A stretch of DNA of 64,000 nucleotides from Nymphaea colorata. Taxonomy: Eukaryota; Streptophyta; Magnoliopsida; Nymphaeales; Nymphaeaceae. The translations under genes were made by a program, and so were the position numbers. The stretch's first letter is position 1; the number at the start of each line of letters is the position of its first letter. This document shows, piece by piece, positions 325 through 26,609 of this stretch. Location: contig NC_045144.1 of assembly GCF_008831285.2 (NCBI RefSeq), positions 4,642,268-4,706,267 on the forward strand. Reading direction: 5' to 3'. The notes beneath the pieces were generated by a model. It made no database searches, was not told the DNA's origin, and saw nothing but the letters and a program-made list of their open reading frames with translations.

Positions 325-696
325 ATGAAGATGAGCATGATCAAGGCGTCGTTGCTGGTCGTGCTGGTGTTGGCTCCACTGGCCACACAGCTCGCCTGGG
401 CTGCAGCACCAGCAGATGAGGCGAAGAAACCAGAATCGCTGATACCGATTCGCATCGGTATACCGTCCGTCCCTCTCATGGAGGCCATCCGGTGCTTGTC
501 CTCGCTGAGAGCCCACGGGTTCGAGATTTTCAGCTTCGTCCTGCGCGGCGCTCCTCTCAGCAAGCTCGCCTGCGACGCCATCAGGGGCCTGCCGGCGTCC
601 TGCACCGACGGCTTGAATCAAATTCTTGGCGACTTTGGCGTACCATCCAACCAGATACTCTCCCACTGCGGAGCTGCTGCTCCATCACCTCTCTAG
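325..696 (+). CDS. Small secreted four-cysteine protein, prolamin-like (ECA1/EC1-like) type, copy A1
   Basis: An intronless ORF of 123 codons. Residues 1-26 form a signal peptide: basic start, hydrophobic LLVVLVLAPLA core, likely cleavage after AWA. The mature part is about 97 residues and has exactly four cysteines spaced C-x25-C-x9-C-x21-C, ending in an Ala/Pro-rich tail. The order (C followed by LSSL, a helix ending EIFSF, then LACDAI, ASCTDGL and a final C) resembles the prolamin-like domain of egg-cell EC1 and ECA1 gametogenesis-related proteins, but lacks their second cysteine and one of the paired CC. That family assignment is inferred by eye. Paralogues lie at 4491 (+) and 23486 (-). 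A canonical AATAAA follows at 853-858. Expected to be secreted; its function is unknown. Confidence 0.8.
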   Translation: MKMSMIKASLLVVLVLAPLATQLAWAAAPADEAKKPESLIPIRIGIPSVPLMEAIRCLSSLRAHGFEIFSFVLRGAPLSKLACDAIRGLPASCTDGLNQILGDFGVPSNQILSHCGAAAPSPL

Positions 697-852
697 TCGG
701 CCACCGGCCGGCATGGATGATCTGCCTGGAACCCGGGCAGTAAAGGGAGAAACTGATTATCGAGGCAGTGGAGGGATCTCTTTGTTTTCATTGTTTTAGT
801 TAAGCCGTGTTCTTTTAGTGTGCTGGAAATTGTATTGGTGCATGATTTCTCC

Positions 853-858
853 AATAAA
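853..858 (+). terminator. Poly(A) signal AATAAA of the 325-696 gene
   Basis: AATAAA occurs about 155 bp after the stop codon in a 3' UTR stretch (TTTCTCCAATAAAGTATTC). Almost the same stretch follows the paralogue at 23486-23848 on the other strand (TTTATT at 23325-23330). Confidence 0.6.
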
Positions 859-1084
859 GTATTCGACAAGAGATCTCAACTTATTTATTTATTTTGAAAC
901 TTTTGACCGGTTCCTATAGAAACTCAGACCTGAATTGATTATCTCTTCACTTACAGAGCGTTGATAGCATCTGCTTCGAGATCCTTAGGATTTAAGATCA
1001 AACATTCCTTCATTGAATCTTAAATTCGACTTTTTTTTTCAATGTAAAAAAAAAAAAAAACTTAAGTCTATCCTAAGATGCTTA

Positions 1085-1425
1085 ATGAACCATGAATTCC
1101 ACAATTTGAATTCAAACTAAATTCAGTTTTTAAGTTGATATCTGAATCTGAATTTTGAATCGAATTTGGCCCGTTTTCAAAATGTAAAAGCATTAAAGAT
1201 ATAAGATATTTAGTGAAAATAAATCTGATCCAAATCCGTATCCAAATCCAAATTGAATATGAATATATCTGAATCCAAATAAAATCCGATTGGATGTCCT
1301 TTCTTAAATCCGAATTTGATCTCATTTCTGAATGGAACATTAAGTTTTTTTTGTTTTTCATATCCAGTTTTTTTCAAAATGGTTCAGTCAAATCAGATAT
1401 CCAATTTAAATCGAATATATGTTAC
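1085..1425. repeat. Dispersed AT-rich repeat (ATCCGAATCC-like motif), copy 1
   Basis: A stretch built of iterated degenerate words such as AATCCAAAT, GAATTTGAAT and ATCTGAATC on both strands. Similar stretches occur at 5222-5480, 27480-27830, 29130-29520, 44590-44850 and 52020-52280. No ORF is convincing. It looks like a decayed, low-complexity non-autonomous repeat family. Confidence 0.45.
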
Positions 1426-2270
1426 ATTCAACACTTTGACCGTCCATCGGATTGAATTCGACGACAAAACAAGCCTCTGACAAGGACGAATATGTAGATA
1501 GACGATCCATGCCTTCCGAATCTTTACTGGAAATTCAAAACAGAAGTGAGCCCCATAAGTTTAACTATTTATTAATTTATATATATTGGAGGACCCGTAA
1601 GGACAAAACGTGTTTTTTTGAAGAAAAAACATGAAGAATAAAAAAAATGCATTTTTAACGCGTTTTTCACGTTTTTTTTTTATTTTGTTTTAAATGTCAA
1701 ATAATTTTTATATTTTATTTATTACAAAACTACTTGTCATGTTTGTGTTATTATTTTCTCACTTATTTTATCATATTTTTAGTTTTTTTTTTAATACCTT
1801 TTTCCCTGTATTTTTTATTTGTAACTATGGGGCCCTCAATAGAGACCTGCATAGAAGCATGCCTCTAATTTGATTCTTATAAATAATTTGGGTCAAGTGA
1901 TGGAACTTGGAACCTAAATTGATGGGGTGTCATCGTTGACGGCAATGCAGAAGGATTAGTGGAGGAACCTTAGCGCTTTTTTTTTTTTCAAACAATAGGA
2001 AAACTGATGCAGGTGAGAACCCCCAAAAAATAACTCTGAAAGTTTTATGTCCCATTGGAGCCAAGGTTAGAAGAAAAACTTAAAACTCGACTTAAGGAAA
2101 AGAAATACGCATTAATATGTTATGTCTCCTCCGTGATCTGTGCTTATCATCGATCGAAGTTCAAACATATCATAAGCTCCAGTATATCATGAAATAGATA
2201 CGGCCATTTAAGCAAATCAAGCTGCAAGTACCAACATGGCGTAAAGAAATTATTGTATTGGGGAAATATC
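1426..2270. other. AT-rich intergenic DNA, nothing recognised
   Basis: Contains T-rich tracts (for example around 1670-1800) and no ORF or RNA gene that could be supported. The last part may be the 3' flank of the minus-strand gene at 2341. The words CAACAGCACTCTGAA (near 2277) recur downstream of its paralogue near 26185. Confidence 0.4.
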
Positions 2271-2340: not shown

Positions 2341-2718
2341 TTAGTTTGAGGGGATTGGCGCATAGGCGGGGCTGATACCCGGCAGCCCACAGGCAGCATG
2401 TATTGCTCCGGCGTCGAATTCCGCAAGGCCCAGCACGAAACTGAGGGCATCCTGGCAGACGGGCTGGTCGGCCAGAACCTTGCAGCCAAATTCCATGAGC
2501 CCCTTCCCCTGCATCATGATCGCATACAACTCTTGAAATTGAACGTGTTCGACCAATGCGTCTAGGCAACCAAGAACTAACTTGACTTGAGGAACGAGGA
2601 TGTCTGATGCCTCCGGCCCGCCGGCCTCAGGACCGCCGGCCTCCAGCGCCCGGGCCTGCTGCATGGCCAATGGAACCAACACCATGAAGGCCACCAACAA
2701 CGCCTTGGTCATCTTCAT
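2341..2718 (-). CDS. Small secreted four-cysteine protein, prolamin-like type, copy B1
   Basis: An intronless ORF of 125 codons. The signal peptide covers about residues 1-24 (MKMTKALLVAFMVLVPLA then MQQARA). It is followed by an acidic Gly/Pro/Glu linker with the doubled word EAGGP. The C-terminal domain has four cysteines spaced C-x27-C-x8-C-x21-C and ends CGLPGISPAYAPIPSN. It is a close paralogue of 26220-26609 (-), with the same tail and linker, and a more distant relative of 325, 4491 and 23486. The start is the first ATG of the MKMTK context, preceded by AACAAG. A TATA motif lies about 90 bp upstream at 2808-2815. Assignment to the EC1/ECA1 prolamin-like group rests on cysteine spacing only; the biochemical role is unknown. 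Confidence 0.78.
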   Translation of the reverse strand: MKMTKALLVAFMVLVPLAMQQARALEAGGPEAGGPEASDILVPQVKLVLGCLDALVEHVQFQELYAIMMQGKGLMEFGCKVLADQPVCQDALSFVLGLAEFDAGAIHAACGLPGISPAYAPIPSN

Positions 2719-4490: not shown

Positions 4491-4859
4491 ATGAGAATGA
4501 TGAAGTTGTCGTTGTTGGTCGTGCTGGTGTTGGCTCCGCTGGCCACAGAGCTTGCCTGGGCTGCAGCACCAGCAGATGGGGCGAAGAAGCCAGAAGGGTG
4601 GATACCAGAACTCCCCAGCTTCCTCCTGCCGGTCCCATTTTTAGAGATCATCCAGTGCGTCTCCTCACTCAGCGCCTACGTAAGCGAGATTTTCGGCTTC
4701 ATCCAGCACCACACCCCTCTCAGTGAGCTCGCCTGCAACGCCATCAGGGGCCTGCCGGCGGCCTGCACCGACGGCCTCCACCACTTGCTCAACATACCAT
4801 TCGACCAGAGCCAGTTACTCGCCGTCGTCTGCGGAGCAGCTCCTCCGGCGCCTCTCTAG
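4491..4859 (+). CDS. Small secreted four-cysteine protein, prolamin-like type, copy A2
   Basis: An intronless ORF of 122 codons. The signal peptide covers residues 1-25 (MRMMKLSLLVVLVLAPLATE then LAWA). The mature domain has four cysteines spaced C-x25-C-x9-C-x21-C and a C-terminal CGAAPPAPL tail. It is closest to 23486-23848 (-): both have the block SFLLPVPFLEIIQC and the LLxIPFDQ motif near the C-terminus. The 325-696 copy is more diverged in the middle. Together with its homologous 5' flank this is a direct duplication of the 325-696 unit. The EC1/ECA1-like family assignment is inferred from spacing (CxSL, EIFGF, LACNAI, AACTDGL). Function unknown, probably extracellular. Confidence 0.8.
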   Translation: MRMMKLSLLVVLVLAPLATELAWAAAPADGAKKPEGWIPELPSFLLPVPFLEIIQCVSSLSAYVSEIFGFIQHHTPLSELACNAIRGLPAACTDGLHHLLNIPFDQSQLLAVVCGAAPPAPL

Positions 4860-5178
4860 AAGAACCCCGACGGGGAAGCGAGATACTGATTAGCTAGCTA
4901 GGCGATGGAGTGGAGTCCTCTTCACTCTGGTTCTAGTTTTGGTTTTTGGTCCGTCCACCTTTATGCTTTTTAGTTTAAGCACTGTTCTTTCCTAGAAATT
5001 CTATTGGCGTATGGGTTTTCCAACAAAGTATGTGATATTTGATCTCAAGTTTTTCTTGGCGGTTTAATTAATTTTTTAATTTTGATTGTTTCCAAGAAAC
5101 TTTTTTTTTTTAATGAAACAGGTGTTAGCCATTTATGAAACATATATGAGCATTCTTGACATATATGGCCATAGAATG

Positions 5179-5181
<3 letters not shown>

Positions 5182-5221
<40 letters not shown>
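5182..5221. repeat. (TA)n microsatellite
   Basis: About 20 uninterrupted AT/TA units at the edge of an AT-rich dispersed repeat (5222-5480). Confidence 0.9.
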
Positions 5222-5224
<3 letters not shown>

Positions 5225-5480
5225 CGGATTAGAATCCAATCTATATATAATTAAATCTGAATTCAAATATGAATCAGATCAGACGCCATTTATTAAATCT
5301 CAATTCGACCCGAATTTTTAGTTGGATGTTAAATTATAATCCAAGAATATGATCAGAGTTGAATTGGTTGACATCCATAGCTACTTGTGTCTTGGATAAA
5401 GACACCTGCGTGAGCATGACGTTCAAAAATTTAACCGGATATTTAGTGTTGAGTCTTGACCTGACCTGGAATCGGAGTTT
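5222..5480. repeat. Dispersed AT-rich repeat (ATCCGAATCC-like), copy 2
   Basis: Degenerate words such as AATCCAATC, GAATTCAAATATGAATC and CAATTCGACCCGAAT recur here, as in the stretch at 1085-1425. No coding potential. Confidence 0.4.
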
Positions 5481-5850
5481 GAATTCCGTTAATATATTAA
5501 AAAATACAAAATAATATTTAAATTATACTCGATACTCTTGTGACGCAGCAGAAAGCTGCGTTACAATTTGATGAGTTAACATTTATCAATCCTTTCTGTG
5601 ACGAAGTAAATGCCGCATCACTAAAGGCCAGACTAGTTCCTTAATTAATGACAAAATTCTCTTGCGCATATCTTTTCTTTTATGTTCTGCCGCGGGTTCC
5701 CCTTTTTTCTCGCGAAAGTTACTGTTCCGAGCACCGATTCGGAACTTCTTTCTCGGCTTCCGATGATCGACCCATTTGTTTCTGGCGATAGATCCATCAA
5801 TTGGACTATCCAGGCTTGGATTCTCGTGTTTTTTTTTTCTTCCGGTGGCA
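5481..5850. other. Host flank left of retrotransposon A, nothing recognised
   Basis: Contains short words resembling a MITE (GTGACGCAGCAGAAAGCTGCGTTAC near 5540) and a more GC-balanced stretch 5680-5850. The sequence was interrupted by element A: it ends in TTGTG, and host sequence resumes after the same TTGTG at 11396-11400. Confidence 0.4.
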
Positions 5851-5855: not shown

Positions 5856-6481
5856 TGTTGCTCTAACTCCTGTTGTTGTGGAGGAGCTCATGGGAACATG
5901 TGTAAGTGTGAGTGCGTGAAGGAGCTCGTGGGTACGTGAGTTCCATCGGTTCTAAATCATTAGTTAAAGAAGAATGGAGAAATTGGTGGAGTAAAAAGTG
6001 GAGAAGTGAGGAGAACTTGTGAATGCGTGCGGTTCCCAAGATCATGGGTGATAGAGAAAATGGTGCGAGACTTGAGGGCTGAAATGGTGGAGATCATGGG
6101 AGTTACCAGCGGTTACTAAGTTGAGGGCTGAAATGGAGGAGATCATGGCACGACCAGCGGTTACTAAACTTTAGCATCAAGTTCCAGTTTTTTTTAAAAT
6201 GTTGTTTTCCTTTTTAGTGTACATGTGATGTTGAGAAGAGTACGCCCAAAAGAATGAAGAAATTTTTTTACTTTAACCTCTTCCCTCAACCCGTGAAGTC
6301 CCTCTCGCTCTTTACTCTCTCTCTCCTGCCGTCTCCTTTTCTCTCTCTTTGCCCAAGAACGCTGCTCCCTCTCTCTCTGCGCTTTCCCTCCTTGGTGTGT
6401 TGCAGTCTACGGCCTCCTCTCCTCATTTTGCCCTTACCAAAAGAGAGGCGATTGAGTGTGAATCAAGAGAGATCGCCAACA
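5856..6481 (+). repeat. 5' LTR of element A
   Basis: Starts TGTTGCTCTAACTCC and ends GATCGCCAACA. It includes an internal near-duplication of about 50 bp (6071-6119 and 6122-6170, both containing GAGGGCTGAAATGG). A CT-rich stretch 6300-6420 is probably the R/U5 part. Confidence 0.92.
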
Positions 6482-6483
6482 TT

Positions 6484-6495
6484 TGGTATCAGAGC
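6484..6495 (+). other. Primer binding site of element A
   Basis: TGGTATCAGAGC is complementary to the 3' end of plant initiator tRNA-Met, in the standard position just after the 5' LTR. Confidence 0.9.
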
Positions 6496-6530
6496 CAGGT
6501 TGTACGCCAAAGCTCCCACGATTCCAGCCG

Positions 6531-7430
6531 ATGTCGATCACAAACGAGGCAGCGCGGGAAATCACCAGTGGGACGTTCCAATATCTGCTGCTCACGACGA
6601 CCAACTACACCAGCTGGGTGATTAGGGTCCAGGCCATGATGGAAGATCAAGGCGTCTGGGAGGCAGTCGAGCCGACGGTCGGTGTGACTGTCGACACGAG
6701 GAAGGACAAGAAGGCGAGGTCGCATCTTCTCCAAGCCCTCCCAAAGGATCTCCTAATGCAGGTGGCAAAGAAGGTAACGACGAAGGAGGTCTGGGATTGC
6801 CTCAAAACGAGATTCGCCGGGGCAGATCGCGTGAGGAATGCACGCTTACAAACCTTGAAGAGCGACTTTGACGCCATGCGAATGCAGGAATGAGAGACTT
6901 TGGATCAATATGCGGGCAGACTCTCACCGGAATGTCCGTCAAGTAAGCCAATTTGGGGGGAACCCTGAGCGATGCCGCCTTGGTGAAGAAGCTGTTTGAC
7001 ACCGTTCCAAATCGGTTTCTCAGCGTGATCGCCAGCATAGAGCAGTTTTGCGACCTCGACAGAATGCTGTTTGAAGAGGCCGTGGGACGACTCAAGGCCT
7101 ACGAAGAACTGTTCGGTACCGGTGGCAATGGTGATGCTCAATTGCTTCTCACTCAGGCCGAGTGGGAGGCACGACAAAAGAGAAGCGGCAGCGATCCATC
7201 ATTGACCCGAAAGGAGAGGACTCACGGGGAAGGAGGGGTTCACAGCTGGGGTGGACGTGGACGCGGGAGAGGCGGATGAGGCGACTTCCCAAAGGACAGA
7301 GCAGGTGGCTCTGGAGGCGGTGGTCGTGACAAGAGTCACATCCGTTGCTTCAATTGCAAGGAATTGGGGCATTATGCGAACCAGTGCAAGGCTCCCAAAA
7401 GGAAGGAGGAAGCGCATCTTACACAAGCTG
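6531..7430 (+). pseudogene. Element A gag (nucleocapsid) region, broken
   Basis: The gag reading frame starts at ATG 6531 (MSITNEAARE) and contains the usual Copia gag block (YTSWVIRVQAMMEDQGVWEA, then KEVWDCL). An in-frame TGA at 6891-6893 and a frameshift before about 6953 separate it from the second half (LVKKLFDTVPNRF). A Gly/Arg-rich stretch and a CCHC zinc knuckle (CFNCKELGHYANQC, about 7350-7390) follow after another frame change. It would have made the capsid and nucleocapsid that package element RNA. Confidence 0.85.
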
Positions 7431-8978
7431 ACGACACCGAACCAGCCCTGCTGCTTGCAGAGTTGGAAGAAGTGGTGCCTGCAACACTTGAGAGACAAGA
7501 ATGGCAGGAACGACAGGAAGCCGTCATGTTGAATGAAGAGCAAGTATGGCCCGAACTGCATGGGACCGAGCACGGTAAGGAAACTACCGACATCTGGTAC
7601 TTGGATAACAGTGCCAGCAACCACATGACCAGAGACAGGGTCAAGTTTCGGGAGTTGGACGAGGCAATCACCGGCAAGGTGAAGTTCGGCGACGGCTCAT
7701 CGGTGCAGATCATAGGTAAGGGTTCAATTCTTTTTAGATGCAAAAATGATGATCAATGGCTGCTCAATGAAGTATATTATATTCCAAGGCTTCGCAGCAA
7801 CATCGTGAGTCTCGGACAACTCACTGAGGCAGGCCATAAGGTGGTTATGGATGAGGATGAACTGGAGGTGTTCGTCAAAAATCCATGGCTACTGATCATG
7901 AATGTGAGACGCACGCCAAATCGTCTCTGTCGCATCGAGCTGCAGATTGCAAGGCCAGTGTGTCTCCTGGCAAACCTCGAGGATCCGTCATGGTTGTGGC
8001 ATGCTCGTCTCGTCCATGTCAACTTTCAAGCAATGAAGATGCTTGTAAACAAGAAGATGGCAACCGGGGTACCGCCGGATCACTCATCCCGCTCAGTTAT
8101 GTCAAGAGTGTTTGGTGGCGAAGCAGACGAGATAGTCGTTCCCGTCGGCAGCCAACTATCGAGCGAAGGAGCCACTCGAACTCATGCACGCTGATCTTTG
8201 CGGCCCGATCACGCCACCCACCCCTGTCGGTAATAGCTATTTCTTACTAATCGTTGATGACTTCACTCGTTGGATGTGGATGTGCGTGATTAGAACAAAA
8301 GACCAGGCATGCTCGACGTTTATGAGGATCAAGGCGTTGGCCGAGAATGCGTGCGGGCATCGCATCAAGACGCTCCAGACCGATCGGGGAGGCGAGTTCC
8401 TCTCTCTCGAGTTCGCTAATGTGTGTGAACAGGCGGGCATTGCGCGACACCTCATTGCACCATACTCACCACAGCAACACAGTGTGGTGGAGCGGAGGAA
8501 CAGGACAGTGATGGCGATGGCTAGGTCCCTCCTCAAGAGCATGAGCATGCCAGGAAGGTTTTGGAGGGAGGCGGTACGACATTCGTCACCACAGCAAACC
8601 GCTTGCCTACGAAGGCCATGGGCGAGCGCACACCGTATGAAGCTTGGAGTGGTAGGAAGCCGGATCTTGCACATCTTCGATTGTTATGTTGCACGACGCA
8701 TGCCATGGTGGCATGCCATGGTGACAATGCCAAACCTCAAGAAACTTGATGATCGCAGCCGGCCAATGGTGTATCTCGGCGTCGAGGATGGCTGCAAGGC
8801 GCATCGACTTTTCAATCCACAGTGCGGGAGAATCCATGTAAGTCGTGACGTTAAATTTGAAGAAAAATTGAAGTGGAATTGGAACATGGATGCAAGAGTC
8901 AGTGAATCGTCGAATTTCATTATGGAGGATGAATCCAATGATAAGTCACCAGTGGACAACTCAGTTGCAAGTGGATAA
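7431..8978 (+). pseudogene. Element A protease and integrase region, broken
   Basis: The protease block is WYLDNSASNHM near 7596-7628. The usual D-[ST]-G-A is D-N-S-A here, so the catalytic triad glycine is replaced. The pre-integrase block WLWHARLVHVNF lies near 7993. After a frameshift the integrase runs from about 8170 to 8860, with HADLCGP, TDRGGEF and VVERRNRT supplying the D, D and E of the DDE catalytic core. Later motifs (NLKKLDDRSRPMVYLG) are typical of Copia integrase C-terminal regions. Multiple frame changes make it non-functional. Confidence 0.85.
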
Positions 8979-9339
8979 GCAAGAAGGTTGTTATCCATGG
9001 AGTCAGGCTACCCGACTTCTTCATTGACATCGATGGGTGGCGAAGCAACGCCGGCTCAAAGATTGCTGAAAAATGAAACTGCCGCGGCCTCAGAGATGGA
9101 ACACAGTAATGACGGACCTGTTCGGTATAGACATATCGATGATATCATGTGAGACGCTCGGCGTGTCGAGATCGATGATGAAGTCGTCGAAGAAGAGGCA
9201 TGCTTGCGGCAACAGAGGAGTCGTCGTGTTACCAAGAGGCAGCTGGTCAGCCGGCATGGGTGGAAGCGATGGCCAAGGAGATTGAGTCCATTGAAAAAAC
9301 TCGACTTGGACGCTGACAACCCTACCGGCCGGAACCAAA

Positions 9340-10736
9340 ACAATCAGACTCAAATGGGTGTTCAAATTAAAAAAAAACTCAGACAAAGAGGTGATCAAGC
9401 ACAAGGCCAGATCAGTCGCGAAAGGCTATGTCCAACGACAAGGGATTGACTTCGAGGAGGTGTTTGCGCCAGTCGCCAGACTCGACACTTTACGAGTCAT
9501 CCTTGCTGTCGTAGCCAATCGTGGGTGGCAAGTCCATTACCTCGACGTCAAATCTGCATTCCTCAACGGCGAACTTGAGGAGGAGGTCTATGTAACCTAA
9601 CCAGAGGGTTTCACAGTAAAGAACAAGGAGCATATGGTACTCAAATTGAGCAAGGCATTGTACGGTCTTCGACAAGCACCACGCGCCTGGGACACGTGCC
9701 TGGATCGGAGCTTGAAGCACCTTGGGTTCTCAAAGTGCGCACTGGAACAATCCGTGTATACGAGGGGAAAAGACCGCACCGGCGTCATCACTAGAATTTA
9801 TGTTGATGATCTAATTGTAACAGGAGAGCATTCGGAGGCAATCGTTGCATACAAGCAGCAGATGATGGCTGAGTTCGAGATGAGTGACCTCGGCCTGCTC
9901 ACCTATTACCTTGGGATTGAAGTGGCACAAAGCGAAGACGGTATCCGGATCAAGCAAACAGCCTATGCCAAGAAGGTGTTAATGCAATTTGATATGCTTG
10001 ATTGTAATCCCACAAAACTTCCCATGGATCCAAGGTCGCAGCTGCACAAGGATCCCGAAGGACAGCCGGTGGATGCAACAGAGTATCGACGAATCATCAG
10101 ATGTCTGAGGTATCTTCTCCACACAATGCCAGATCTTTCGTATGCCGTCGGTGTATCTAATAGATTCATGGGGAGACCCACAGTGATGCACCACAAGGCA
10201 GTGAAGCAGATTTTGCGATATTTAAAAGGCACAATCCACTTCGGTCTTGTATATACCAGAGGAAGAGGAGAAGAGGTAATTGTCGGGTTCACGGATAGTG
10301 ACTTGGTGGGCGACGTCGATGACCGGAAAAGCACCAGAGACATGGCATTCTATGTAAATGAAAGCCTAGTCTCATGGAACTCGCAGAAGCAGAAGACCGT
10401 TGCTCTGTCTTCGTGCGAAGCTGAGTTCATGGCGGCAACTGCAGCAACATGTTAGGCACTTTGGCTTAGAGGACTACTGGCTGAGCTAGTTGGAAAAGAG
10501 CCGCATGTGGTAAAGTTATATGTGGATAATAAGTCCACAATCGCATTAATGAAGAACCCAGTTTTACATGGACGTAGCGAACACATTGACACAAAGTTCC
10601 ATTTCATACGCGAATGTGTTGAAAGAGGACAAATTATTATAGATTTTGTGCGAACAGATGAGCAACAAGCTGATCTATTGACAAAGGCGTTGCTGGTGAC
10701 AAGGTTGGCAACAATGTGACATTTGCTAGGTGTTCG
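9340..10736 (+). pseudogene. Element A reverse transcriptase/RNase H region, broken
   Basis: The reverse transcriptase is recognisable from KARSVAKGYVQRQGIDFEE (about 9403), LDVKSAFLNGELEEEVYV (about 9544-9597), ALYGLRQAPRAW and YVDDLIVTG, the catalytic YVDD at about 9800. RNase H motifs follow: FTDSDLVGDVDDRKST, SSCEAEFMAA and LYVDNKSTIALMKNP. In-frame stops TAA at 9598-9600, TAG at 10453-10455 and TGA at 10717-10719 interrupt it. The remaining frame is long, so decay is moderate. Confidence 0.88.
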
Positions 10737-10760
10737 AGATCTCGAGCCACACCAGGATTA

Positions 10761-10770
10761 AGGGGGAGAA
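10761..10770 (+). other. Polypurine tract of element A
   Basis: AGGGGGAGAA lies immediately before the 3' LTR; it would prime plus-strand synthesis. Confidence 0.85.
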
Positions 10771-11395
10771 TGTTGCTCTAACTCCTGTTGTGGAGGAGCT
10801 CGTGGGAACGTGTGTAAGTGTGAGTGCGTGAAGGAGCTCGTGGGTACGTGAGTTCCATCGGTTCCAAATCATGGATAGTTAAAGAAGAATGGAGAAATTG
10901 GTGGAGTGAAAAGTGGAGACGTGACGAGAACTTGTGAATGTGTGTGTGGTTCCCAAGATTATGGGTGATAGAGAAATGGTGCGAGACTTGAGGGTTGAAA
11001 TGGAAGAGGTCATGGGAGTGACGAGCGGTTACTAAGTTGAGGGCTGAAATGGAGGAGATCATGGCATGACCAGCGGTCACTAAACTTTAGCGTCAATTCC
11101 AGTTTTTTTTAAAATGTTGTTTTCTTTTTAGTGTAAATGTGATGTTGACAAGAGTACGCCCCAAAGAAGGAAGAAAATTTTTTATTTAACCACTTCCCTC
11201 TCCCTCTTTACTCTCTCTCCTGCCATCTCCTTTTCTCTCTCTCTGCCCAAGAACGCTGCTCCCTCTCTCTCTGCGCTTTTCCTCTTTGGTGTGTCCCTCC
11301 TTAGTGTGTTGCAGTCAACAGCCTCCTCTCCTCATTTTGCCCTTACCAAAAGAGAGGCGATTGAGTGTGAGTGTGAATAAGGGAGATCGCCAACA
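10771..11395 (+). repeat. 3' LTR of element A
   Basis: Starts TGTTGCTCTAACTCC and ends GATCGCCAACA. It differs from the 5' LTR at scattered substitutions and a few small indels. It is followed by the TTGTG target duplication (11396-11400). Confidence 0.92.
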
Positions 11396-11400
11396 TTGTG

Positions 11401-11964: not shown

Positions 11965-11969
11965 GCATG

Positions 11970-12522
11970 TGTTGGATAGTGGCCATTTGAGCAGGGGCGG
12001 AGCCAGAATTTTCCTTAGGGGCGGGCCGACAGTCCAACCTCTGGATCTGGGTAGGGCCAAATTGAATTCAACTCTAGAAAATACATTGGGCACTTAAAAA
12101 ATTATATTTTTTTAATGTAATTTTTTTTTTCATTTGCCAGGGTGGGGCCATGGCCTAGGCGGGCCCCCTCTTCCCTCCGCCCCTGCATTTGAGCCCTATC
12201 CGAATATCTACGAGATCAACCCAATAAACACTCACGAGATAAAGTTAAAGCTTATCTCAACCTTTTCCTAAAATCTCTCACTTTAACCGCAACTGGGGTT
12301 TGGGAAAAACCTAAGGGGCTGGACTATATATTCCTAGCAAGCTCTCTTCAACGATTTATCGGTGAGCAACCCCTTGGAAGTAAACCCCAAAATCTGACTT
12401 GTTCTTCTTCCTCTTTCTCTTGCTAGAGGTTGCTGTTCTTTACAGGGGACTCTCGAAGACGCTGGAGATCTTGCTGCAGGCAACAAAGAGACACTTTTGC
12501 TGCAACGTCAAAACATCCAACA
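11970..12522 (+). repeat. 5' LTR of element B (interrupted by a MITE)
   Basis: TGTTGGATAGTGGCCATTTGA, then the inserted element, then GCCCTATCCGAATATC through to ATCCAACA. The 3' LTR reads straight through the equivalent point (CCATTTGAACCCTATCC) and so represents the empty site. Confidence 0.93.
11992..12185. mobile_element. hAT-type MITE inserted in the LTR of element B
   Basis: 194 bp with perfect 11-bp terminal inverted repeats CAGGGGCGGAG and CTCCGCCCCTG, flanked by an 8-bp target duplication CATTTGAG (11984-11991 and 12186-12193). The eight-base duplication and CAGGGGCGG-type ends are characteristic of hAT non-autonomous elements. It has no ORF. It inserted after element B was already in place, because the 3' LTR lacks it. 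Confidence 0.92.
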
Positions 12523-12523
12523 G

Positions 12524-12535
12524 TGGTATCAGAGC
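12524..12535 (+). other. Primer binding site of element B
   Basis: TGGTATCAGAGC, one base after the 5' LTR; initiator tRNA-Met type. Confidence 0.9.
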
Positions 12536-14252
12536 CAGGTTTAGCGATCTCAAGTAAGTCTGTTCAGACTTCTCTTATGCCCTTGGTGAATGCCTAAGTT
12601 TGTATCATGTTTCTCGAATCATGTTTCATGAATGATGAAAGCATGCTAGATCAAAGGTTTAGAACTATGCTGCGTGGATGAAGCAAGTTAAGGCTTTCTG
12701 TACGCAAATCAACATGCATAGTTATTTCTGTGCATGTTATTCAAGAAGCATGACGACTGCAAATCGATCGATATAATTTTTGTGCCTATAATTCTAGAAC
12801 ATGGTATTTCGTGAACGTGCGTGAGCATGCTAGTCGCCTGTGTATCATGTTGTTTGAAGTTCTATTTTCTGAAAGTAAAACATGATAGTATTGATTGGGT
12901 TTGGAGCTCTCTGCTTTACATATTATGTCGTCTCCTTTTTCTTTCTGTGAACAGGAGACCAGACCAGAGCTAACCCTAAAACAGAGCATCGATATCTTTC
13001 TTTTAAGAGCTTCCTCAGAGGGTTCCGAACCAAATGCAAGCAAGAGTTGTTCTCTTGAACCCTCTTCAAGGGCATGGCTACAGAGCTTGCTACGCAAGTC
13101 TCTGCTGTCATCCCGAACTCTACTATTTTCAATGGATGCAGAGCCTGCTCTACCCAGCTACAACAAAATTAAAACCTATAAACAAATAAGAGGGATGAAA
13201 ACGTCGCTGAACCTACAAACTTCCTCCTGTCCTTTCTCTGTGCGTCGCTTGAGAAACTGGTCCAATGGCCACCCTGAAAAGAGCCCGGTCTGTCTGTCAA
13301 AACCAGGGGATTAGACACCAAGATTTTGTCGCTATTGGGCCTCAAATTTTTTAACTCCCTCACTTTGCCCTTGTCTTCTCTACCGACGAGCAGAAGCAGT
13401 CGCCCAACTGATTGAAGCCAGTCGTTTCCCTCATTCTCAAAAGCACAAATCTCATGCCTGAAACGGAGCTCTCCTCTTGATGGTAGCAGAGAGGGAGTTC
13501 AGGCAGGAGGGTAGACTACAACAGAAACCCTAGGAGTCTTGATGATGCTTCTCATTCCCCGCTGCCTGTCGAGTGAAGTTCTTCCCGCCACTGGTAAAAG
13601 AAAAGCTCGGGATCTTGAGAGTCGACGGCCGAAAGTGGCAGATATTGAAAATCAAAACCCGAAAGAGAAATAGGCACCTCACCATGCTTGCTCACCGTCG
13701 GACTTGACTACTACCGTCTTCTGTGCGGTAGAAGTCGAGGAAAACGGGAAGAGGGACGGCGACGGTGGAAGAAAACTCGCAGAGGCAACGGTGGAAGTGC
13801 GTCGGGCTAACCCTAGGAGAGAGAAGCTCCCGCGAGGAGAGAGAAAGAAAACGAAAAAATGAGAAAAAAAATTGTTCGGAAGGGTATTTATAGCAATATT
13901 CTGAAAATTTTATACGAAATTGCTTTTGGAAACCCTCAGAATTATTAAAAATTGCTAAAAGAGGGTTCCAGGAAATTATTGCACTTTTTTAGCTGGAGAC
14001 TGTGAATTTATGAGAATTTCGTGGAGCTCTCACAAGCTTGTTAGAAAATTATAAAAGAAGGGTTCTGAAAAGAGATTATGTATGTTTCATATTTAATCTA
14101 ATGTCTTGTTATTCTAAATATTATTTTAGAATGTTGTTTGAGACTCATGTACATGCTCTAGAATACTTTCTTTAAGGTCTCTTGATGTAATATTGTGAAC
14201 TTTTTTCTTTGTTATGGTTGTTCTTTACTTGCCATCAAAAATTAATTTAGAA
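12536..14252 (+). other. Long untranslated leader of element B
   Basis: About 1.7 kb between the PBS and the gag ATG. The first part (to about 13300) has mixed composition. 13400-13850 is GC-richer, with GAGAGAGAAG and GACGGCGACGGTGG words that look like the reverse complement of a plant gene 5' region. 13860-14250 is AT-rich. No gag-like or host protein was recognised in any frame, and short ORFs here look fortuitous. It may hold packaging and translation signals or captured host DNA. Confidence 0.55.
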
Positions 14253-15653
14253 ATGACATCAAGAGTGGGAGCATCTGAATTAGCTAAGACTGAAAAACTG
14301 AATGAGACAAATTTTCATGCATGGAAGCGTAGAATAATGTTGGCCTTGACTTTGAAAAGAGTCATTTATGTGATCAATCAGCCTTTTCCCACTTTAGGAG
14401 ACAAACCCACAGATGAAGAAAAAAAAACATATGAGTCATTTACTTCTGATGATCTAATGGCTACAACTATAATGTTAGCCTTCATGGAAGATGATCAAAT
14501 CAGAGTCTTTGAGGATTGTCCAACTGCCAAGGATATGTTTGCTACTATCACTTCTAAATACAACACCATGACTGCGATGCACATTCAGTTACTGAAAGAA
14601 CAATACAATTCCTATAAGACGAAAGAGTCAGACAATGTTATGAACCATGTTAATAAGATGATAGTCATGGCTAAAGATTTAGCCGTTGTGGGGAATGTCA
14701 TATCTGACAATATGCAGATAAGCACAATTCTGAACAGCCTACCTCCTTCTTGGGATATGGCAGTTACTGCCTTGAGTGTCCAATTTGACAATCTTAATTT
14801 AGAAAAACTTCCTATACAGTTAACTCTACAGCAACAACGTCTGACCGAGAGAAATAGAGCAGAGTTGATGACTGTTCAGGAAAAAACTACTGGTAGTTAT
14901 GTGCCTGTAAAACCAAAACAATTTAAAAATCGAAACGATGGCAAGTTCAAGGACAATTATGCAGGTACTAAGAAATCTCAAGGAACAGTAGTGAAATGCT
15001 ACAGATGCGAAAACCCTGGACATATAAAGAAGAACTGCAGGACAAAATTCTCAAGTAAGAAAGACAACAATGGTCAGGGCAACTACAACAAAAGGAAGCC
15101 TCAAGAGGACTCTGACAGAGAAGTCATCTGTGTCGTGTCGGAATGTCTGTTTGCAGATGGAGATATAACTGGATGGTGGGTTGATTCGGGAGCTACTCGT
15201 CACATTGCAAAGACAAAAGAAAGAGTGATCCACACGAAAAATCTGAGTCCGGGAACCCACAAGATCTATATGGGAAACAACTCATATTGTGATGTCATGA
15301 GAATTGGGGCATACCGTCTAAATGTTGGGGGTACAAGTATTGTACTTAACGAGGTTTTATATGTCCCTTCCATGAGGAGGAATCTAGTGTCTGTTCCTAT
15401 ACTAATGGGGAAAAGTTTTGAAATACGTTTTATTTCAGGAAAAGTAACTGTGGGAAAACATGAAAGGTTCATGTTTGGTGGAAAATTTGTAAAAGAACAT
15501 GGTATGTTCAACCTGAATGATATGAATAAAGCTTCCAGTTCTGCTTATTTCGATTGTGCAATGTGTGTAAACGTAAACTTATGGCATGAAAGATTAAGCC
15601 ATATAAGCATAAAAAAAGATGAAGACTCTAACACAACAAGAGTTAATACCTGA
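14253..15653 (+). pseudogene. Element B gag and protease frame
   Basis: A long open frame from ATG 14253 (MTSRVGASELAKTEKLNETN). Gag homology covers the N-terminal 230 codons. The CCHC knuckle CYRCENPGHIKKNC lies near 14998-15040 and the protease WWVDSGATRHIAKT near 15175-15217, with an intact D-S-G-A. The pre-integrase block LWHERLSH lies near 15580. The frame is lost at about 15615 by a frameshift. Gag and protease themselves look undamaged, unlike in element A. Confidence 0.88.
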
Positions 15654-16424
15654 CATAAATTTAAATGATTTTGCGAAATGCGAGTAATGTGTATACGGAT
15701 AAATGACAAGAAAATCATTTCCGTCTGAAGTAGTTTGGGCCACTGAACTATTGGAAATAATTCATACTGATATCTATGAACCTTTCAGAATCCAAACTCA
15801 TAGTGGCAAGTTATACTTCATCACGTTTATTGACGACTTCTCAAGATTTGGTTATATATACTTAATCAGACATAAATTGGAAGTATTTGAGAAATTCAAG
15901 GAATACAAATCTGAAATCGAGAGACAACTTGGAAGAAATATCAAAATTGTAAGGTCTGATCGAGGAGGAAAATACACTTCTAGTGAATTCCTCGAATACT
16001 GTAAAGTCATTGTAATTAATAGGCAAAAGACAACGCCTAGGACACCACAACAAAATGGTGTGGCTGAGAGGTGTAATAGAACCCTCTTGAACATGGTGCG
16101 ATCCATATTGGCAGGAGCACAGTTACCAAAAGTTTTTTGGGAGAAGCTGTGTTGACAGCTATGTATACAATAAACCGAGTGCTATGTAAAGCAGTCTCAA
16201 CCACTTCTTATGATAGATGGACTGGTGTAAAACCAGATCTGAGAAATTTAAGGAGATGGGGATCTGTAGCACACGTAAAAATTCTAGATCCAAAACTAGA
16301 TAAACTAGATAACAGATCAGTGAGATGTATATTTATTGGATATCCCAAAGGATCCAATGGTTACAGATTGTATCATTCATCTATGAGACTTATAGAAAGC
16401 AGAAATGTAGAGTTCATAGAATAA
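15616..16424 (+). pseudogene. Element B integrase region, broken
   Basis: After the frameshift at about 15615 there are in-frame TAA codons at 15685-15687 and 15700-15702. The integrase then follows from 15703, with HTDIYEPF, SDRGGKYTS and GVAERCNRT marking the D, D and E of the catalytic core. A second frameshift at a T/G run near 16131-16141 moves the remainder (VLTAMYTINRV, LDNRSVRCIFIGYPKG) into the frame starting near 16137. A TAA closes it at 16422-16424. Confidence 0.85.
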
Positions 16425-18292
16425 CTCAATAATAAAGTTTTTGATCCAGTAGAATATCAAAATGATACACTGGATGATCTGATTTACTCAGAGGAACAGT
16501 CTGACAATCAACCGGCTGGAGGTCAGGTTGGTAATGAACCAACTGAGCAGGAATCGTCTGAGGAAGAGTCAGACAATGAACCGACTGAAGACCAGTTAGA
16601 ACCAACTGATCTGAATACCTCATCATCTCAGACGTTATCAGGTCATAAAAGACTTAGGGCTCCTCCTTCATATTTGAATGATTATTATGTATATCTGGCA
16701 GAGGATCTATGCTATTTAGCAGATATTGAAGAAATGTCTGACAACCTGACATATGACGAAGCCATTACCTCGCATGAATCGTCGAATTGGGTGAATGCTA
16801 TGGATGAAGAAATTGAATCGATAGAAAAGAATAATGTTTGGGAATTAGTAGATCTTCCCAATGATAGAAAACCCATTGGGTGTAAATGGGTGCTGAGGAA
16901 GAAATATAAAGCTGACAGATCAGTCAAAAAATTTAAAGCCAGACTGGTAGCAAAAGGTTTTTTCCAAAAAGAAGGAATTGATTACTCAGAGACCTATTCG
17001 CCGGTTACAAAGTTTGCATCAATCAGAATAATTTTGGCTATCGCAGCATTCTATGACTTGAATATTTGTCAGATGGATGTGAAGACTGCCTTTCTGAATG
17101 GTGAGTTGAAAGAAACTATATATATGACTCAACCACAGGGATATGTGATCAAGGAAAAAGAAGACAAAGTGTACAAGTTGAATAAATCATTGTATGGACT
17201 GAAACAGTCTCCTAAACAGTGGTATTTTGCTTTTCACAAAGCAATTATAAAACTTAGGTTCGTTACAAACCAACTATACCACTATGTATATGTTTGGAAA
17301 AGTGAGAGCCTTTTCTGTATTCTATCATTATACGTTGATGACATATTACTAACAGGAAATGAAACGACATGATTGTCAAAATGAAGACTTGGCTGAACAA
17401 AAACTTCGAAATGAAGGATTTGGGCGAAACATCCTACATATTAGGAATAAAAATCACTTGAGATAGAAACTCAAAAATCCTGAGTCTAAGCCAAGAACGA
17501 TATATTGATTATATCTTTAAGAAACTTCGGATGTCAGACTACAAAGCAATTGGGACTCCTATTGCTAAAGGAGCAAACTTGAGTAGGAGCAATTGTCAGG
17601 GTGAAAGACAACAAAAATTAAGTGTTCCCTATGCACGAGTTGTTGGCAGTCTAATGTATCTAATGCTGTGTACCAGACCTGACATAAGTTTCCCTATCGG
17701 TCTCATGAGTCGTTATCAAAGTAATATTGGATGGCTTAATTGGCAAGCAGTCAAAAGGATTTTTCGATATATTAAAGGAACAAAGGGACTGAAATTGTCC
17801 TACCAAGCTGATGAGCTTACCTTAGTTGGCTATTCAGATGCAGATTTTGCAGGTTGCAAGGATGACAGTAAGTCTACTTCTGGTTATGTATTCTTCTTTG
17901 GAGGTGGGGCGATAGCCTGGTCCTGTAAGAAACAGGATTGTGTTGCTCAGCACACTCAGGAAGTAGAGAATGTAGCATGTAACATTGCAACAATTTTTGC
18001 TGTCTGGATAAATCAATTCTTGAAAGACTTGAAATTAGATCTTGATCATGAACCGGTTCAACTGTACTGTGATAATCATGCAGCAATATCGCTTATGAAA
18101 AATGGAGTTGTTAGCTCAAAGAGTAAACATATAATGGTGAAATACCGTTACGTTCATGAAATGATTGAGAAAAATAAAATCTCGGTTGATTATTTGCCTA
18201 CCAATGATATGGTGGTTGATCCCTTAACCAAGGGAATATCTGAAGACTTGTTTTCAAAACATGTAATTCATACGGGTTTGAGATATATTTGA
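16425..18292 (+). pseudogene. Element B reverse transcriptase/RNase H region, broken
   Basis: A spacer rich in Glu/Ser/Asp/Pro is followed by the reverse transcriptase from about 16780 (WVNAMDEEIESIE, IGCKWVLRKKYKADRS, KARLVAKGF, MDVKTAFLNGEL, SLYGLKQSPKQW and the catalytic YVDDILLTGN near 17330). Frame changes and stops lie at 17370-17372 and 17459-17461. The RNase H half continues from 17531 to 18292 (VGYSDADFAGCKDDSKSTSG, YCDNHAAISLMKN, DPLTKGIS). RNase H usually carries an EAEY-like block; here it reads TQEVENVA. Confidence 0.87.
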
Positions 18293-18448
18293 AAGGTTGC
18301 GAAGGAAAAACAAGTAAATGGAAAACCTCGCTGTAAACCTTGAAAAAGGTCCAAGTTGCGTTGAATAAGCCAAGTATGGAAAACCACGTAACAAATTGAA
18401 TAAAGAAAACCCACATATAGTGGAAGCAAACTGGCGGTCTCATGGCTA

Positions 18449-18457
18449 AGTGGGAAA
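18449..18457 (+). other. Polypurine tract of element B
   Basis: AGTGGGAAA lies directly before the 3' LTR; it is short but in the expected place. Confidence 0.65.
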
Positions 18458-18808
18458 TGTTGGATAGTGGCCATTTGAACCCTATCCGAATATCTCGTAA
18501 AGATCAACCCAATAAACACTCACGAGATAAAGTTAAAGCTTATCTCAACCTTTTCCTAAAATCTCTCACTTTAACCGCAACTGGGGTTTGGGGAAAACCT
18601 AAGGGGCTGGACTATATATTCCCAGCAAGCTCTCTTCAATGATTTATCGGTGAGCAGTCCCTTGAAAGTAAACCCCAAAATCTGACTTGTTCTTCTTCCT
18701 CTTTTTCTTGCTAGAGGTTGCTGTTCTTTACAGGGGACTCTCGAAGACGCTGGAGATCTTGTTGCAGGCAACAAAGAGACACTTCTGCTGCAGTCAAAAC
18801 ATCCAACA
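18458..18808 (+). repeat. 3' LTR of element B
   Basis: Starts TGTTGGATAG and ends ATCCAACA, followed by the GCATG target duplication. It lacks the MITE present in the 5' LTR. Confidence 0.93.
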
Positions 18809-18813
18809 GCATG

Positions 18814-21389: not shown

Positions 21390-23300
21390 TCTTTGGCCAC
21401 TTTGTATATTCTTTTTGTAACTTGAAACAAAGCGAAATTGAAAAGAAAAAAGATGAAAGCGTGGAGGATGGCTTGTCCTTCTTTTTTAGGGCATGTATCT
21501 TGCTATATATTGTATTTTTGTCGATTGATGAAAATGTGCTACTGATGAATTAGTAGGACACGTTTTCGTCACAGATCGAAATGCCTGATCTCCATTAGCC
21601 AAAAAAGGGTAATTAATTTGTTTAGTGACACTACTGTATGTGCACATAAAGTTTTCCAGTGGCGCAGCTTTGCCACTTTCACTTTCAGTGACGGTAACTA
21701 GAGTAACGACCTAAGCGGCCCAAAGTTTTTGTGACTGAAGATCATTAGTGACTCGCATTTGCGCTACTAAATGTGAAGCCTGTTTTAGTGATTATTGTAT
21801 TGTTTTTGAAGTGTGCAAGACCGATGTTGCATTACAATATCGAACCTGGCATCCTTAGGGAACTTCCTAATATATATATATATATACAGAAAGGAATTGC
21901 CACACTAATTTCATCAAGTTCTCATACAATGGTGTGTGATTAAAGTCTACACTATAACAACAATGTCTTCTCAACCTGTGAAATTGCACCATGGTTAGAG
22001 ACATGCATCCAGTCAGCGCTTGGATGTGTCTGGGAGAGCGGAGGCGAGCATCCAAAAATGAAGGTGCAATAAATTTTGTGAGACGTGTTCAGATATTTCC
22101 CTCCAAAAAGTTTTACTTGTTATAATCTTTTAAAAAAAAATATTATATTTGGACCGTTTAAAAGTCTCCAAAAATACAATTTAACCTAGTTTTCAAAATT
22201 ATAGTTCGGCTTCTCTGACAAGAAATTCCTACGTCATCCAAACACCACTTCAACAGCTAATTGTATAGGTTCTTTGCATGTTCAAATTACCATGTACGTT
22301 CAAATAGATCAAACGCCAGCACCACCATAATTATGGCAGATCGAATCTGTGTAAGCAACAAGTAAAAAGCAAAGAGGATGGCGGGTACTTTTGAATTTTT
22401 TTTATAAAACAATGGATTTTTTTTTTCTTTTTCACGTTCCTTTTTCACCTTTTTAAAAAGTTTTTTTTTTAATTTATTTTAATGAAAGTATTTTGGTCAT
22501 TACACACTCATATGCATTTGTGCACCCTTTCACAATAATAATAGGGTTATTTTAGTAGTTTCCAGTAACCAATACAGGTTTGGCCACAAGCAGTAACCCA
22601 ATGTTCATTTCCATCCCCAAGCGACAAGTTTAAATTAACCATATTTAACAAAGCTTTTTTACTTTTTAATCCAAGTTACTTATAGGGTGGAAAAATTTTA
22701 TTACTTGGATAATAATGACTTTTTGGGGAGGTCACAACATAGATTGATAAGGCCATTTTAATTAGTAAGATAAAAAAAAAATAGCTCTCAAATTTCATGA
22801 AGTTTGGAGCTAATTAGAGAAAGGTGTGAAGTGTGTTAAAGTTGAAAACCTTGGATCAAGTCTTTACAATGGCACCTTTTTTTTTTGGAGGTGTTTGATT
22901 ACTTTAGATTTTGTGCTTTTGTTGATGTAACAAAAGACCTGGTTTATTAGTGGTAGTGTACTGGACCGCAAAGGCGGTCCATTTAAGAACTCGTGTTCAA
23001 AAGTCACTATCACGTTCTAGTGTGTTCTATTTGTTAATTCAAGAGCGGTGTATAAAAAAAAGCCAATGGTCTTTTTTAGAGAATGAACCACTCCCCTTAA
23101 AAAAGAGAAAAAAAAGCTGAAGTAAGGAAAGAGTTCGACCTTAAATCTATGATTCTCAAATCTTAACTCCACGGCCTTTGTATATTACGCTTGTATATTA
23201 CGCTGGAGGACATGATCAATTCAAGTCTGAGTTGTATTGGAACCGATCAAAAGTTCGAAAAACATTAAACCGCCAAAAGAAGGAAAAAAAAAAAACAAAG
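21390..23300. other. AT-rich intergenic DNA, nothing firm
   Basis: 21618-21795 contains words such as TTTAGTGACA, CAGTGACGG and GTGACTCGC on both strands that resemble a decayed MITE. 22940-23020 has a weak tRNA-like pattern (AGTGGTAGTGTACTGG, then GTGTTCAAAAGTC) that could be a SINE relic. No ORF could be supported. Confidence 0.3.
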
Positions 23301-23324
23301 ATGTTGAGAACTCTTATTGAATAC

Positions 23325-23330
23325 TTTATT
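23325..23330 (-). terminator. Poly(A) signal of the 23486-23848 gene
   Basis: The minus strand reads AATAAA within CTCCAATAAAGTATTC, the same 3' UTR words as after the paralogue at 325-696. Confidence 0.6.
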
Positions 23331-23485
23331 GGAGAAATCATGCACCAAAACAATTTCCGGCACACTAAAAGAACACAGCTTAACTAAAAGCATAGGAACA
23401 AAGAGACTCCACCGTCTAGATACTTAATCAGTTTTTCTCCCTTCCCTGCCCGGGTTCCAGGCAGACCAACCATGCTGGTTGTCGA

Positions 23486-23848
23486 CTAAAGAGGTGGCGG
23501 AGGAGCAGCTCCACAGATGGCGGCGATCGCCTGGTCGAATGGTATGCCGAGCAACTGATGGAGGCCGTCGGTGCAGGACGCCGGCAGGCCCCTGATGGCG
23601 TCGCAGGCAAGCTCGCTGATAGGAGTCCGGTGCTGGATGAAGCCCACAATCTCGTTGACGTAGGCTTTGAGTGAGGAGATGCACTGGATGATCTCCAAGA
23701 AGGGGACGGGCAGGAGGAAGGAGGGGAATTCTGGAAGCAGCCATTCTGGTTTCTTCCCCTCACCTGCTGCAGCCCAGGCAAGCTGCGTGGCCAATGGGGC
23801 CAACACGAGCACGACCAACAGCGACCCATTGATCATGCTCATCTTCAT
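23486..23848 (-). CDS. Small secreted four-cysteine protein, prolamin-like type, copy A3
   Basis: An intronless ORF of 120 codons. The signal peptide covers residues 1-26 (MKMSMINGSLLVVLVLAPLA then TQLAWA), almost identical to that of the 325-696 copy. The mature domain has four cysteines spaced C-x25-C-x9-C-x19-C and a CGAAPPPPL tail. The region SFLLPVPFLEIIQC and LLGIPFDQ is shared with the 4491 copy, so this copy combines features of both. The upstream flank also shares words with those two genes (AATGCTCTTAAG and GTTCATGAGCAT on the minus strand). It lies beyond the two retrotransposons in inverted orientation. EC1/ECA1-like family assignment by spacing; function unknown. Confidence 0.8.
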   Translation of the reverse strand: MKMSMINGSLLVVLVLAPLATQLAWAAAGEGKKPEWLLPEFPSFLLPVPFLEIIQCISSLKAYVNEIVGFIQHRTPISELACDAIRGLPASCTDGLHQLLGIPFDQAIAAICGAAPPPPL

Positions 23849-24023: not shown

Positions 24024-24025
24024 AT
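23999..24025. repeat. (AG)n microsatellite in the 5' flank of the 23486-23848 gene
   Basis: About 13 AG units roughly 150 bp upstream of the start codon, in the likely promoter or 5' UTR. Confidence 0.9.
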
Positions 24026-25600
24026 AAAAGAAGAAACTCATGAAGTTTAATTTGTCGTCCGAGAAACAGATTTGTTGAAGTTTCGTTAAGATTTCGAGCT
24101 TTTAATTTCCTTGGAATACAATCACTTTAATTCTCGTTTCATTTGCTCCTGATCAATTTGAGCGCTTGGATTCAATAAGACATTAATTCACGCATATAAG
24201 ATAAGCAATTAATGTTCAGATGCCAATGTGGTAAAAGATTTAATTTTCTTACTGAATTGGACGAATATCGGAAATTTGATAACAATAAAAGTAAAATCAA
24301 AATATGATTTTGTATTTTTAACATATTGGAATCCAGAATCAGGTTCCAGGCAGTTAGATTAAGCAATAGTATCTGGTGAAATCTTTTAACATCACGAACC
24401 CAATTGCGTATGGATTAATATGAATCGGCAGATCATGTTTGAACACAACAAACTAAGTTCCGAACCTAAACAAATGCATCTAATAAAGAGTAGAGGATCT
24501 GCTTTGAATATTTCTTACATTCAGCCCCTTTGATTTTGTTTCCATTCAATTCATTCTCTGTAAAGTTAATGTCATCTTCAATTTTGTTCAGTTTTTGGGG
24601 CTCGGGATTAAGCAAAATCCTATTAACTGCATCATAAACGTGATTTCATTGTAACTTATGTTACCATTTCGAGTACTGTAAGATCTCCTGGAAAGGGTGT
24701 CTGATAAGAAGAAGATGTATTATGTTCTTGAAACACATATTTGAAGAAGGCCACACATAAAAAAATATCTTAGTCAGTTAATCGGTGTAACTCAATTAAG
24801 CTCACTACACAAACTACCTACTTAAATCAAAATACTGCTCCTTTGCATTTAATCACACAAGTAGATTATTATTTTTTTTAAAAAAAAAAGCAAATTGGAA
24901 AGAAAAACACAGAAAAAAAAACGATAAAACAATATATTTCTAATGAAGGAGCACAAACCAAGTTATGCCATACAGTAACAAACAAGATAAACTACTACTC
25001 TTGCCTTCAGTAAAAGGGGAAAAAAAAAAAGACTTGCTTCAAACTTCTTTATGCAACAAACTCAGCTGCGTTCCCAATCTAACCACCCAAACCATGAACA
25101 ACACATCGAACTCCAATTACAAAGACCAAATTCTTGAAAACCTATCTTAGATCTTTGAAATGCGCTTGTTTTTAACTAGAAACTTGTATTAATTTTAAAC
25201 ACCCCCTAAGTCTCTTCGTGCAACAAAATTAATGAGAAAATTTTCAAAAAATCACATAAAGATTAGGCACAGCAATGAAAAACACGAATAAATACTTCAC
25301 CATATTGTTAAAACACATACCAATGATTTTCCATCTTGCATGATTAACAAACGAATCCACGCACAAACTGTTTTTCTGCAAATTAGATACTAAATCAGTA
25401 AATAATTAAGTTTTCCTTGAACAATTTCCTAGCTTGTGTTAATAGATAAAAAAAACGAACATTCATGTAATTATTCTAGACATTGTTAAGAAAAAGGGTA
25501 GCATGTTTGGATATAGTTGACGATGTTCGCTGGTGCAAACAGATGAACTTAGAGCATTTCAGCAATCTTTTCGTCATATTAATTAATTCCAACAGTGACT
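24026..25600. other. AT-rich intergenic DNA, nothing recognised
   Basis: Numerous A-runs and T-runs; no ORF with recognisable content and no RNA gene. Confidence 0.4.
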
Positions 25601-25606
25601 AAGTTA

Positions 25607-25765
25607 CATAGGGGCTGGTGTGGGTCGCCCACCCACATCAGCCTCCGAAAAGTTTCATTGAAAAATTGAAAACGATGTTGTGATGACTTAAAAATTTTAT
25701 GGAGTCAATTTAAATTATAATTGAGCGCCCATCAGGCAAAATATCCTGGCTCTGCCGCTGGACCT
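25607..25765. mobile_element. Probable hAT-type MITE relic
   Basis: Left part GGGGCTGGTGTGGGTCGCCCACCC; right end reads CCTGGCTCTGCCGCTG, matching the reverse complement of the CAGnGGCGGAGCCAG end seen in the intact MITE at 11992-12185. Boundaries and target duplication could not be fixed. Confidence 0.4.
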
Positions 25766-26219
25766 AATTTAAATTAGTAATAACCTAAGGTTTGTTTTTT
25801 GAATAGTTCTTCATGCCCTTTTTTTCAATTTTTCTTCTTTAATTCTTTGACAAGTGCACATTTTGCTATTAAATTATGCATGGCATAAATGATGTTCGAT
25901 ACCGTTTCTAGCCGCGCTTGCTACAAGCAGTGTCAGTAAAACTTTTACCGACCCTTCTTACCTCTTTAACGACCCAAAAAAAGAAAAAAAAATCGTATGC
26001 GTATTTTTAATTAATTTTCACCAACTCAACTCGTAGAAATGAAGAAAGTTATTGTCATTATATCCCCTTCAACTGCAAGTAACAAGCTAATTGGCGATGC
26101 ATGAATAATGATGATGCTCCTTTTCATGGATGAGATCTAAGCATTTCAGCAGACTGAAGACGCTTTAACATTTTTGTTTAAACAACAGCACTCTGAAACG
26201 TAACGCACATTAGATTTGC

Positions 26220-26609
26220 TTAGATGGTGGGAATTGGTGCATCGGCGGGGCTGATACCCGGCAGTCCGCAGGCAGCACGTACATCTCCGGCCTCATAATG
26301 GACAAGGTCCAGCAGGAAATGGAGGGCGTCCAGGCACAGGGGTTTGTCGGCCAGAACCTTGCAGGCAAGCTCCCCGAGGTACTTTCCCTGCCCCAAGTTC
26401 AAGAAGAACTCGTCAACGTGTTCAGCCAATCCGTCCAGGCAACCAAGAACGGCCTTTACTTGAGTAGTCAGGACTTCTTCTGCTTCTGCTGACTCGGGCC
26501 CGCCTGCCTCTGGACCGCTCGCCTCCAGCGCCCTCGCCCTCGCCTGCTGTATGGCCAATGGAGCCAACACCACGAAGGCCAGCAACAGCACCTTGGTAAT
26601 CTTCATCAT
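26220..26609 (-). CDS. Small secreted four-cysteine protein, prolamin-like type, copy B2
   Basis: An intronless ORF. The open frame extends 24 codons further upstream (to 26681) through a poly-alanine tract encoded by GCT/GCA repeats. I choose the MMKITKVLLLAF start at 26609, because it gives a normal signal peptide and matches the start context of the paralogue at 2341-2718. The product is 129 residues: signal peptide about 1-26, Gly/Pro/Glu linker with the repeat GPEAGGPES, then four cysteines spaced C-x25-C-x8-C-x21-C and the tail CGLPGISPADAPIPTI. TATA at 26704-26711 on the minus strand. Group assignment and function as for the other cluster members: secreted, EC1/ECA1-like by spacing, role unknown. 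Confidence 0.78.
   Translation of the reverse strand: MMKITKVLLLAFVVLAPLAIQQARARALEASGPEAGGPESAEAEEVLTTQVKAVLGCLDGLAEHVDEFFLNLGQGKYLGELACKVLADKPLCLDALHFLLDLVHYEAGDVRAACGLPGISPADAPIPTI

Follow-up and report, generated by a model that had tools for sequence, protein, structure and literature searches.

A four-cysteine protein family in the water lily Nymphaea colorata and its likeness to EC1

Which protein family do five short genes in a 64,000-nucleotide stretch of the Nymphaea colorata genome belong to? The stretch (NC_045144.1, positions 4,642,268 to 4,706,267; hereafter the window, on the contig that we call C7) had been given a first-pass annotation from its letters alone, which described proteins of 120-129 amino acids with four spaced cysteines and recognised no named family in them. 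We find that the genes belong to a real, expanded family of at least 19 loci that has no name in the libraries searched. On balance, this family is probably a divergent four-cysteine branch of the EC1/Prolamin-like (ECA1) line, with a prolamin-type fold and with cysteines 2 and 3 lost.

The five genes and their relatives in the genome

The coordinates, strands, lengths and cysteine spacings of the five genes are borne out, and each is an unbroken frame from ATG to stop.

325..696, + strand, A-type gene (L007): 123 amino acids from ATG, a four-cysteine protein with a signal-like N-terminus
2341..2718, - strand, B-type gene (L018): 125 amino acids from ATG
4491..4859, + strand, A-type gene (L004): 122 amino acids from ATG; mature part modelled
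23486..23848, - strand, A-type gene (L006): 120 amino acids from ATG
26220..26609, - strand, B-type gene (L011): 129 amino acids from the ATG at 26609 (the reading-frame tool starts at an upstream GTG); mature part modelled, poorly

The gaps between cysteines are 25/9/21 residues in 325 and 4491, 27/8/21 in 2341, 25/9/19 in 23486 and 25/8/21 in 26220. The proposed A and B subfamilies are distinct in the window: compared with 325, the other A types are 63 and 66% identical and the B types 32 and 33%, and the tails differ. The A tails (CGAAAPSPL, CGAAPPAPL and CGAAPPPPL) are as first described, whereas the B tails, said to end in APIP, run two residues further, as SN and TI. By tblastn within the window, A types match each other at E 2e-23 to 5e-50 (6 directed pairs) and B types at 6e-45 and 1e-44; A-B matches reach 1.6e-10 to 8.4e-4 in 9 of 12 directed pairs and 6.8 in one, with no match between 2341 and 23486 in either direction. 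Judged from these comparisons, the likeness within the family is far beyond chance, although the A-B link taken alone is weaker than the family as a whole. Shared DNA blocks span 521-653 columns between A genes and 583 between B genes; because they are longer than the coding regions of about 370 bases that they include, some flanking sequence is common to the copies. The GC content at third codon positions is 0.67-0.75 in the five genes, against 39% GC for the window. As the first-pass annotation held, the N-termini are of signal type, strongly hydrophobic by measurement and followed by A-x-A-like sites as judged by eye, and the proteins are probably secreted into the apoplast.

The family extends well beyond the five members first proposed. 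In the genome (407,766,735 bases, 783 contigs), gene 4491 as query gave 22 matches, from which we kept 19 loci and left out L023-L025 (E ≥0.5); the four weakest kept loci, L019-L022 (E 0.001-0.03), were retained for their cysteine spacing. A second query, from the clade on contig C1, gave 18 matches, 14 of them among the 19 loci, and no clear new member; L036, L040, L042 and L043 (E ≥0.66) were left out. The count is a lower bound set by these two queries, which a six-cysteine intermediate may have escaped. At least eight loci lie on C7, within about 250 kb (4640-4893 kb), and include a sixth gene about 1.5 kb to the left of the window and two more about 185 kb to its right; the other 11 are on contigs C3 (six), C1 (three), C2 (one) and C6 (one). 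All 19 are single open frames from ATG to stop with the four conserved cysteines. Three members carry additional cysteines, namely a single one between the third and fourth conserved ones in L008, a single one at the C-terminal end of L013 and two ahead of the aligned start in L009.

A tree separates A, B, C1/C6 and C3 groups, with strong support on only 3 of 15 inner branches and with long branches meeting. The loci on contig C3 form two further four-cysteine subgroups, L014-L016 and L020-L022, made up of recent copies that are nearly identical; the proteins of L021 and L022 do not differ at all, although these loci are about 0.6 Mb apart. L013 and L009 carry Ser-Pro repeat tails, which we take to be reminiscent of arabinogalactan-type tails.

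Comparison with EC1, lipid-transfer proteins and storage albumins

None of the five window proteins matched Pfam or NCBIfam at E up to 10, in keeping with the earlier failure to recognise a family. The Prolamin-like family (PF05617), which had been suggested as a check, matched none of the 19 members in the Pfam search, and the six Pfam families that did appear over the 19 members (best E 0.057, DREV) were at chance level. Matches to PDB sequences by phmmer (the best, at E 0.003, to entries with the name O13, and several of the rest to leucine-rich-repeat proteins) were gone in profile searches, so we took them as leucine-pattern noise. No ECA1 or prolamin family with four cysteines turned up among the papers listed in literature searches. 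Searching the genome with PF05617 gave matches at three loci, none in the four-cysteine family. These loci lie on three different contigs and comprise two intact EC1s (L001 and L002) and a broken fragment (L003).

Direct comparison of the family with the native EC1s, in contrast to the library search, points toward the Prolamin-like family. The family profile matches the native EC1s with P 0.0003 when built from the five members and 0.002 when built from 19, and across the entire domain its four cysteines line up with C1, C4, C5 and C6 of EC1. Under different column settings the real pair has E 0.0024, and 0 of 300 cysteine-fixed and 0 of 300 free column shuffles reached the score of that pair. 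In a single-target test with a 72-column family profile, the two EC1s, entered whole, rank first and second of 92 targets, the others being the best 30 of 74 LTP_2 matches, entered as domains, and 60 shuffles of one EC1. The spacing C-x9-C-x21-C at the end of the domain is exact in 14 of 19 members, as in both native EC1s (x8/x21 in four of the rest and x9/x19 in one). Like EC1, the members are small, with one open frame, a signal-like N-terminus (hydrophobic in the five measured) and a Pro-containing tail past the last cysteine, and in 13 of 19 the first helix stretch is followed by glutamate plus a hydrophobic residue. This profile likeness is suggestive of kinship, but not proof of it.

Models were made of the mature parts of 4491 (A) and 26220 (B), from the five sequences only. 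The A-type model has four helices, and the first 14 rows of its structural comparison are all prolamin-superfamily proteins.

Several observations weigh against a place in the EC1 line. One of 417 decoy open reading frames (ORFs) outscores both EC1s; the decoys were other ORFs from the window and the fetched loci, mostly non-genes but including some lipid-transfer proteins (LTPs), and the winner is an antisense ORF at 18571-18987, beside and partly over the long terminal repeat (LTR) of a retroelement, matched over 26 columns. All structural rows have Z below 5, Foldseek gave nothing significant, and the B-type model has no prolamin-superfamily row at all. The family also differs from EC1 in having four cysteines, without C2 and C3, where the EC1 type has six with a CC dyad, and in its numbers, 19 loci against two intact and one broken. 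The available text of PMC8702097 describes EC1 by tryptophan after the first and fifth cysteines, one exon and a signal peptide; no member of the 19 has tryptophan at either place. Each line of evidence is weak alone. The case for EC1 draws on spacing, profile and fold together, and we regard the modelled fold and the profile likeness as weak but concordant. We infer common descent with EC1 from this concordance.

Non-specific lipid-transfer proteins (nsLTPs; LTP_2, PF14368) share with the family its size, signal-type N-terminus, the four helices of the A model and the best structural rows. Descent from these eight-cysteine proteins by loss of four cysteines, with a lipid-binding role kept, for example in DIR1-like defence, is nevertheless unlikely. 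Both EC1s outscore each of the 30 LTPs tested, which were the best of 74, no LTP appears among the PDB sequence matches listed, and the C-x9-C-x21-C spacing is that of EC1. The nsLTP motif C..C..CC..CxC..C..C is not present, since the family has only four conserved cysteines and neither CC nor CxC. Storage proteins of the 2S-albumin type, whose members Ara h 2, Ber e 1 and the Moringa albumins are among the top structural rows of the A model, are a far more remote candidate. In the five mature proteins Q, N and R together amount to only 4-9%, against the high Q and R content of storage albumins, and the family has no CC dyad.

A resemblance by convergence has to be weighed as well, in which an unrelated helical four-cysteine family, perhaps lineage-specific, has come to look like a prolamin fold. 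The absence of persuasive matches from Pfam, NCBIfam and PDB would fit such an origin, as would the weak profile scores, the decoy above EC1 and the empty B model. We nonetheless consider it rather improbable, because the cysteines align with those of EC1 from one end of the domain to the other, none of the 600 column shuffles reaches the real score and the first 14 structural rows fall in a single superfamily.

A candidate mechanism and role

If the family is a branch of the EC1 line, its members would be proteins of about 10 kDa with a four-helix prolamin-type fold and a putative apoplastic location. In the available text of PMC5052319 and PMC9832785, type 1 LTPs have bonds C1-C6, C2-C3, C4-C7 and C5-C8, and type 2 LTPs C1-C5, C2-C3, C4-C7 and C6-C8. 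Since C2 pairs with C3 in both types (PMC5052319, as far as its available text goes), one whole disulphide would be gone, the one tying helix 1 to helix 2 in LTPs. By analogy with LTP pairing, the six cysteines of EC1 may be mapped as C1-C5, C2-C3 and C4-C6, and the remaining C1-C5 and C4-C6 would be the first-third and second-fourth pairs of the family. Loss of C2 and C3 would thus remove one bond and leave two intact, which would explain their joint absence.

The likeliest use, to which we give roughly even chances, would be that of short-range secreted proteins in the tissues of the flower or gametophyte that duplication has diversified; the chief alternative candidate role is defence in the apoplast or the binding of lipids. 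EC1 proteins trigger the movement of HAP2 to the surface of sperm, and the Arabidopsis mutant is rescued by an EC1-like protein from Amborella (PMC12069490, in its available text). Replacement of EC1 by the four-cysteine family is unlikely, because intact EC1s are kept in the host genome. We offer only tentatively, as a rather doubtful idea, that it represents EC1-related signals expanded in the water-lily lineage while Prolamin-like stayed at two intact copies, with diversifying paralogues as candidates for pollen-ovule or gamete communication.

If the proposed EC1 kinship is true, the EC1/Prolamin-like scaffold can shed a whole disulphide and yet expand, and such branches escape standard profile searches, so that reproductive cysteine-rich proteins would be undercounted in early-diverging angiosperms. 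The gene set would then be a defined handle on how gamete/ovule signalling diversified near the base of the flowering plants.

Duplication history and neighbouring features

The window genes had been read as a simple expanded, partly inverted gene pair. Synonymous divergence (dS) does not support this, because the nearest relatives of two of the genes lie outside the window: for 23486 a copy at C7:4891 kb (0.11), and for 2341 the copy on contig C2 (0.08) and then that at C7:4640 kb (0.10). Within the window, dS is similar for 4491-23486 and 2341-26220 (0.33-0.37). A single ancient duplication of a pair could explain these values, although their standard errors are about 0.08.

The ratio of nonsynonymous to synonymous divergence (dN/dS) is 0.26-1.0 within A and within B, values that fit fast-evolving reproductive or defence proteins. 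Of the 10 A pairs, 7 have a dS larger than dN at z above 2, but none of the 6 B pairs does, so that constraint is shown for A but not individually for B.

Two retrotransposons sit between genes 4491 and 23486.

5856..11397, + strand: decayed Copia-type LTR retrotransposon; LTR pieces 5856-6483 and 10771-11397, 87% alike
12186..18809, + strand: second Copia-type LTR retrotransposon; LTR pieces 12186-12523 and 18472-18809, 95% alike

Two tandem 86-bp units (21218-21389), 97% alike, lie some 2 kb from gene 23486. Elsewhere in the window, tandem Abhydrolase_3 (carboxylesterase-type) genes at 49336-50391 and 55467-56477, on the - strand, are 86% identical. A shortened copy lies at 43139-43553 (two pieces, 95% and 90%), and close to 48123-48280 there is a remnant.
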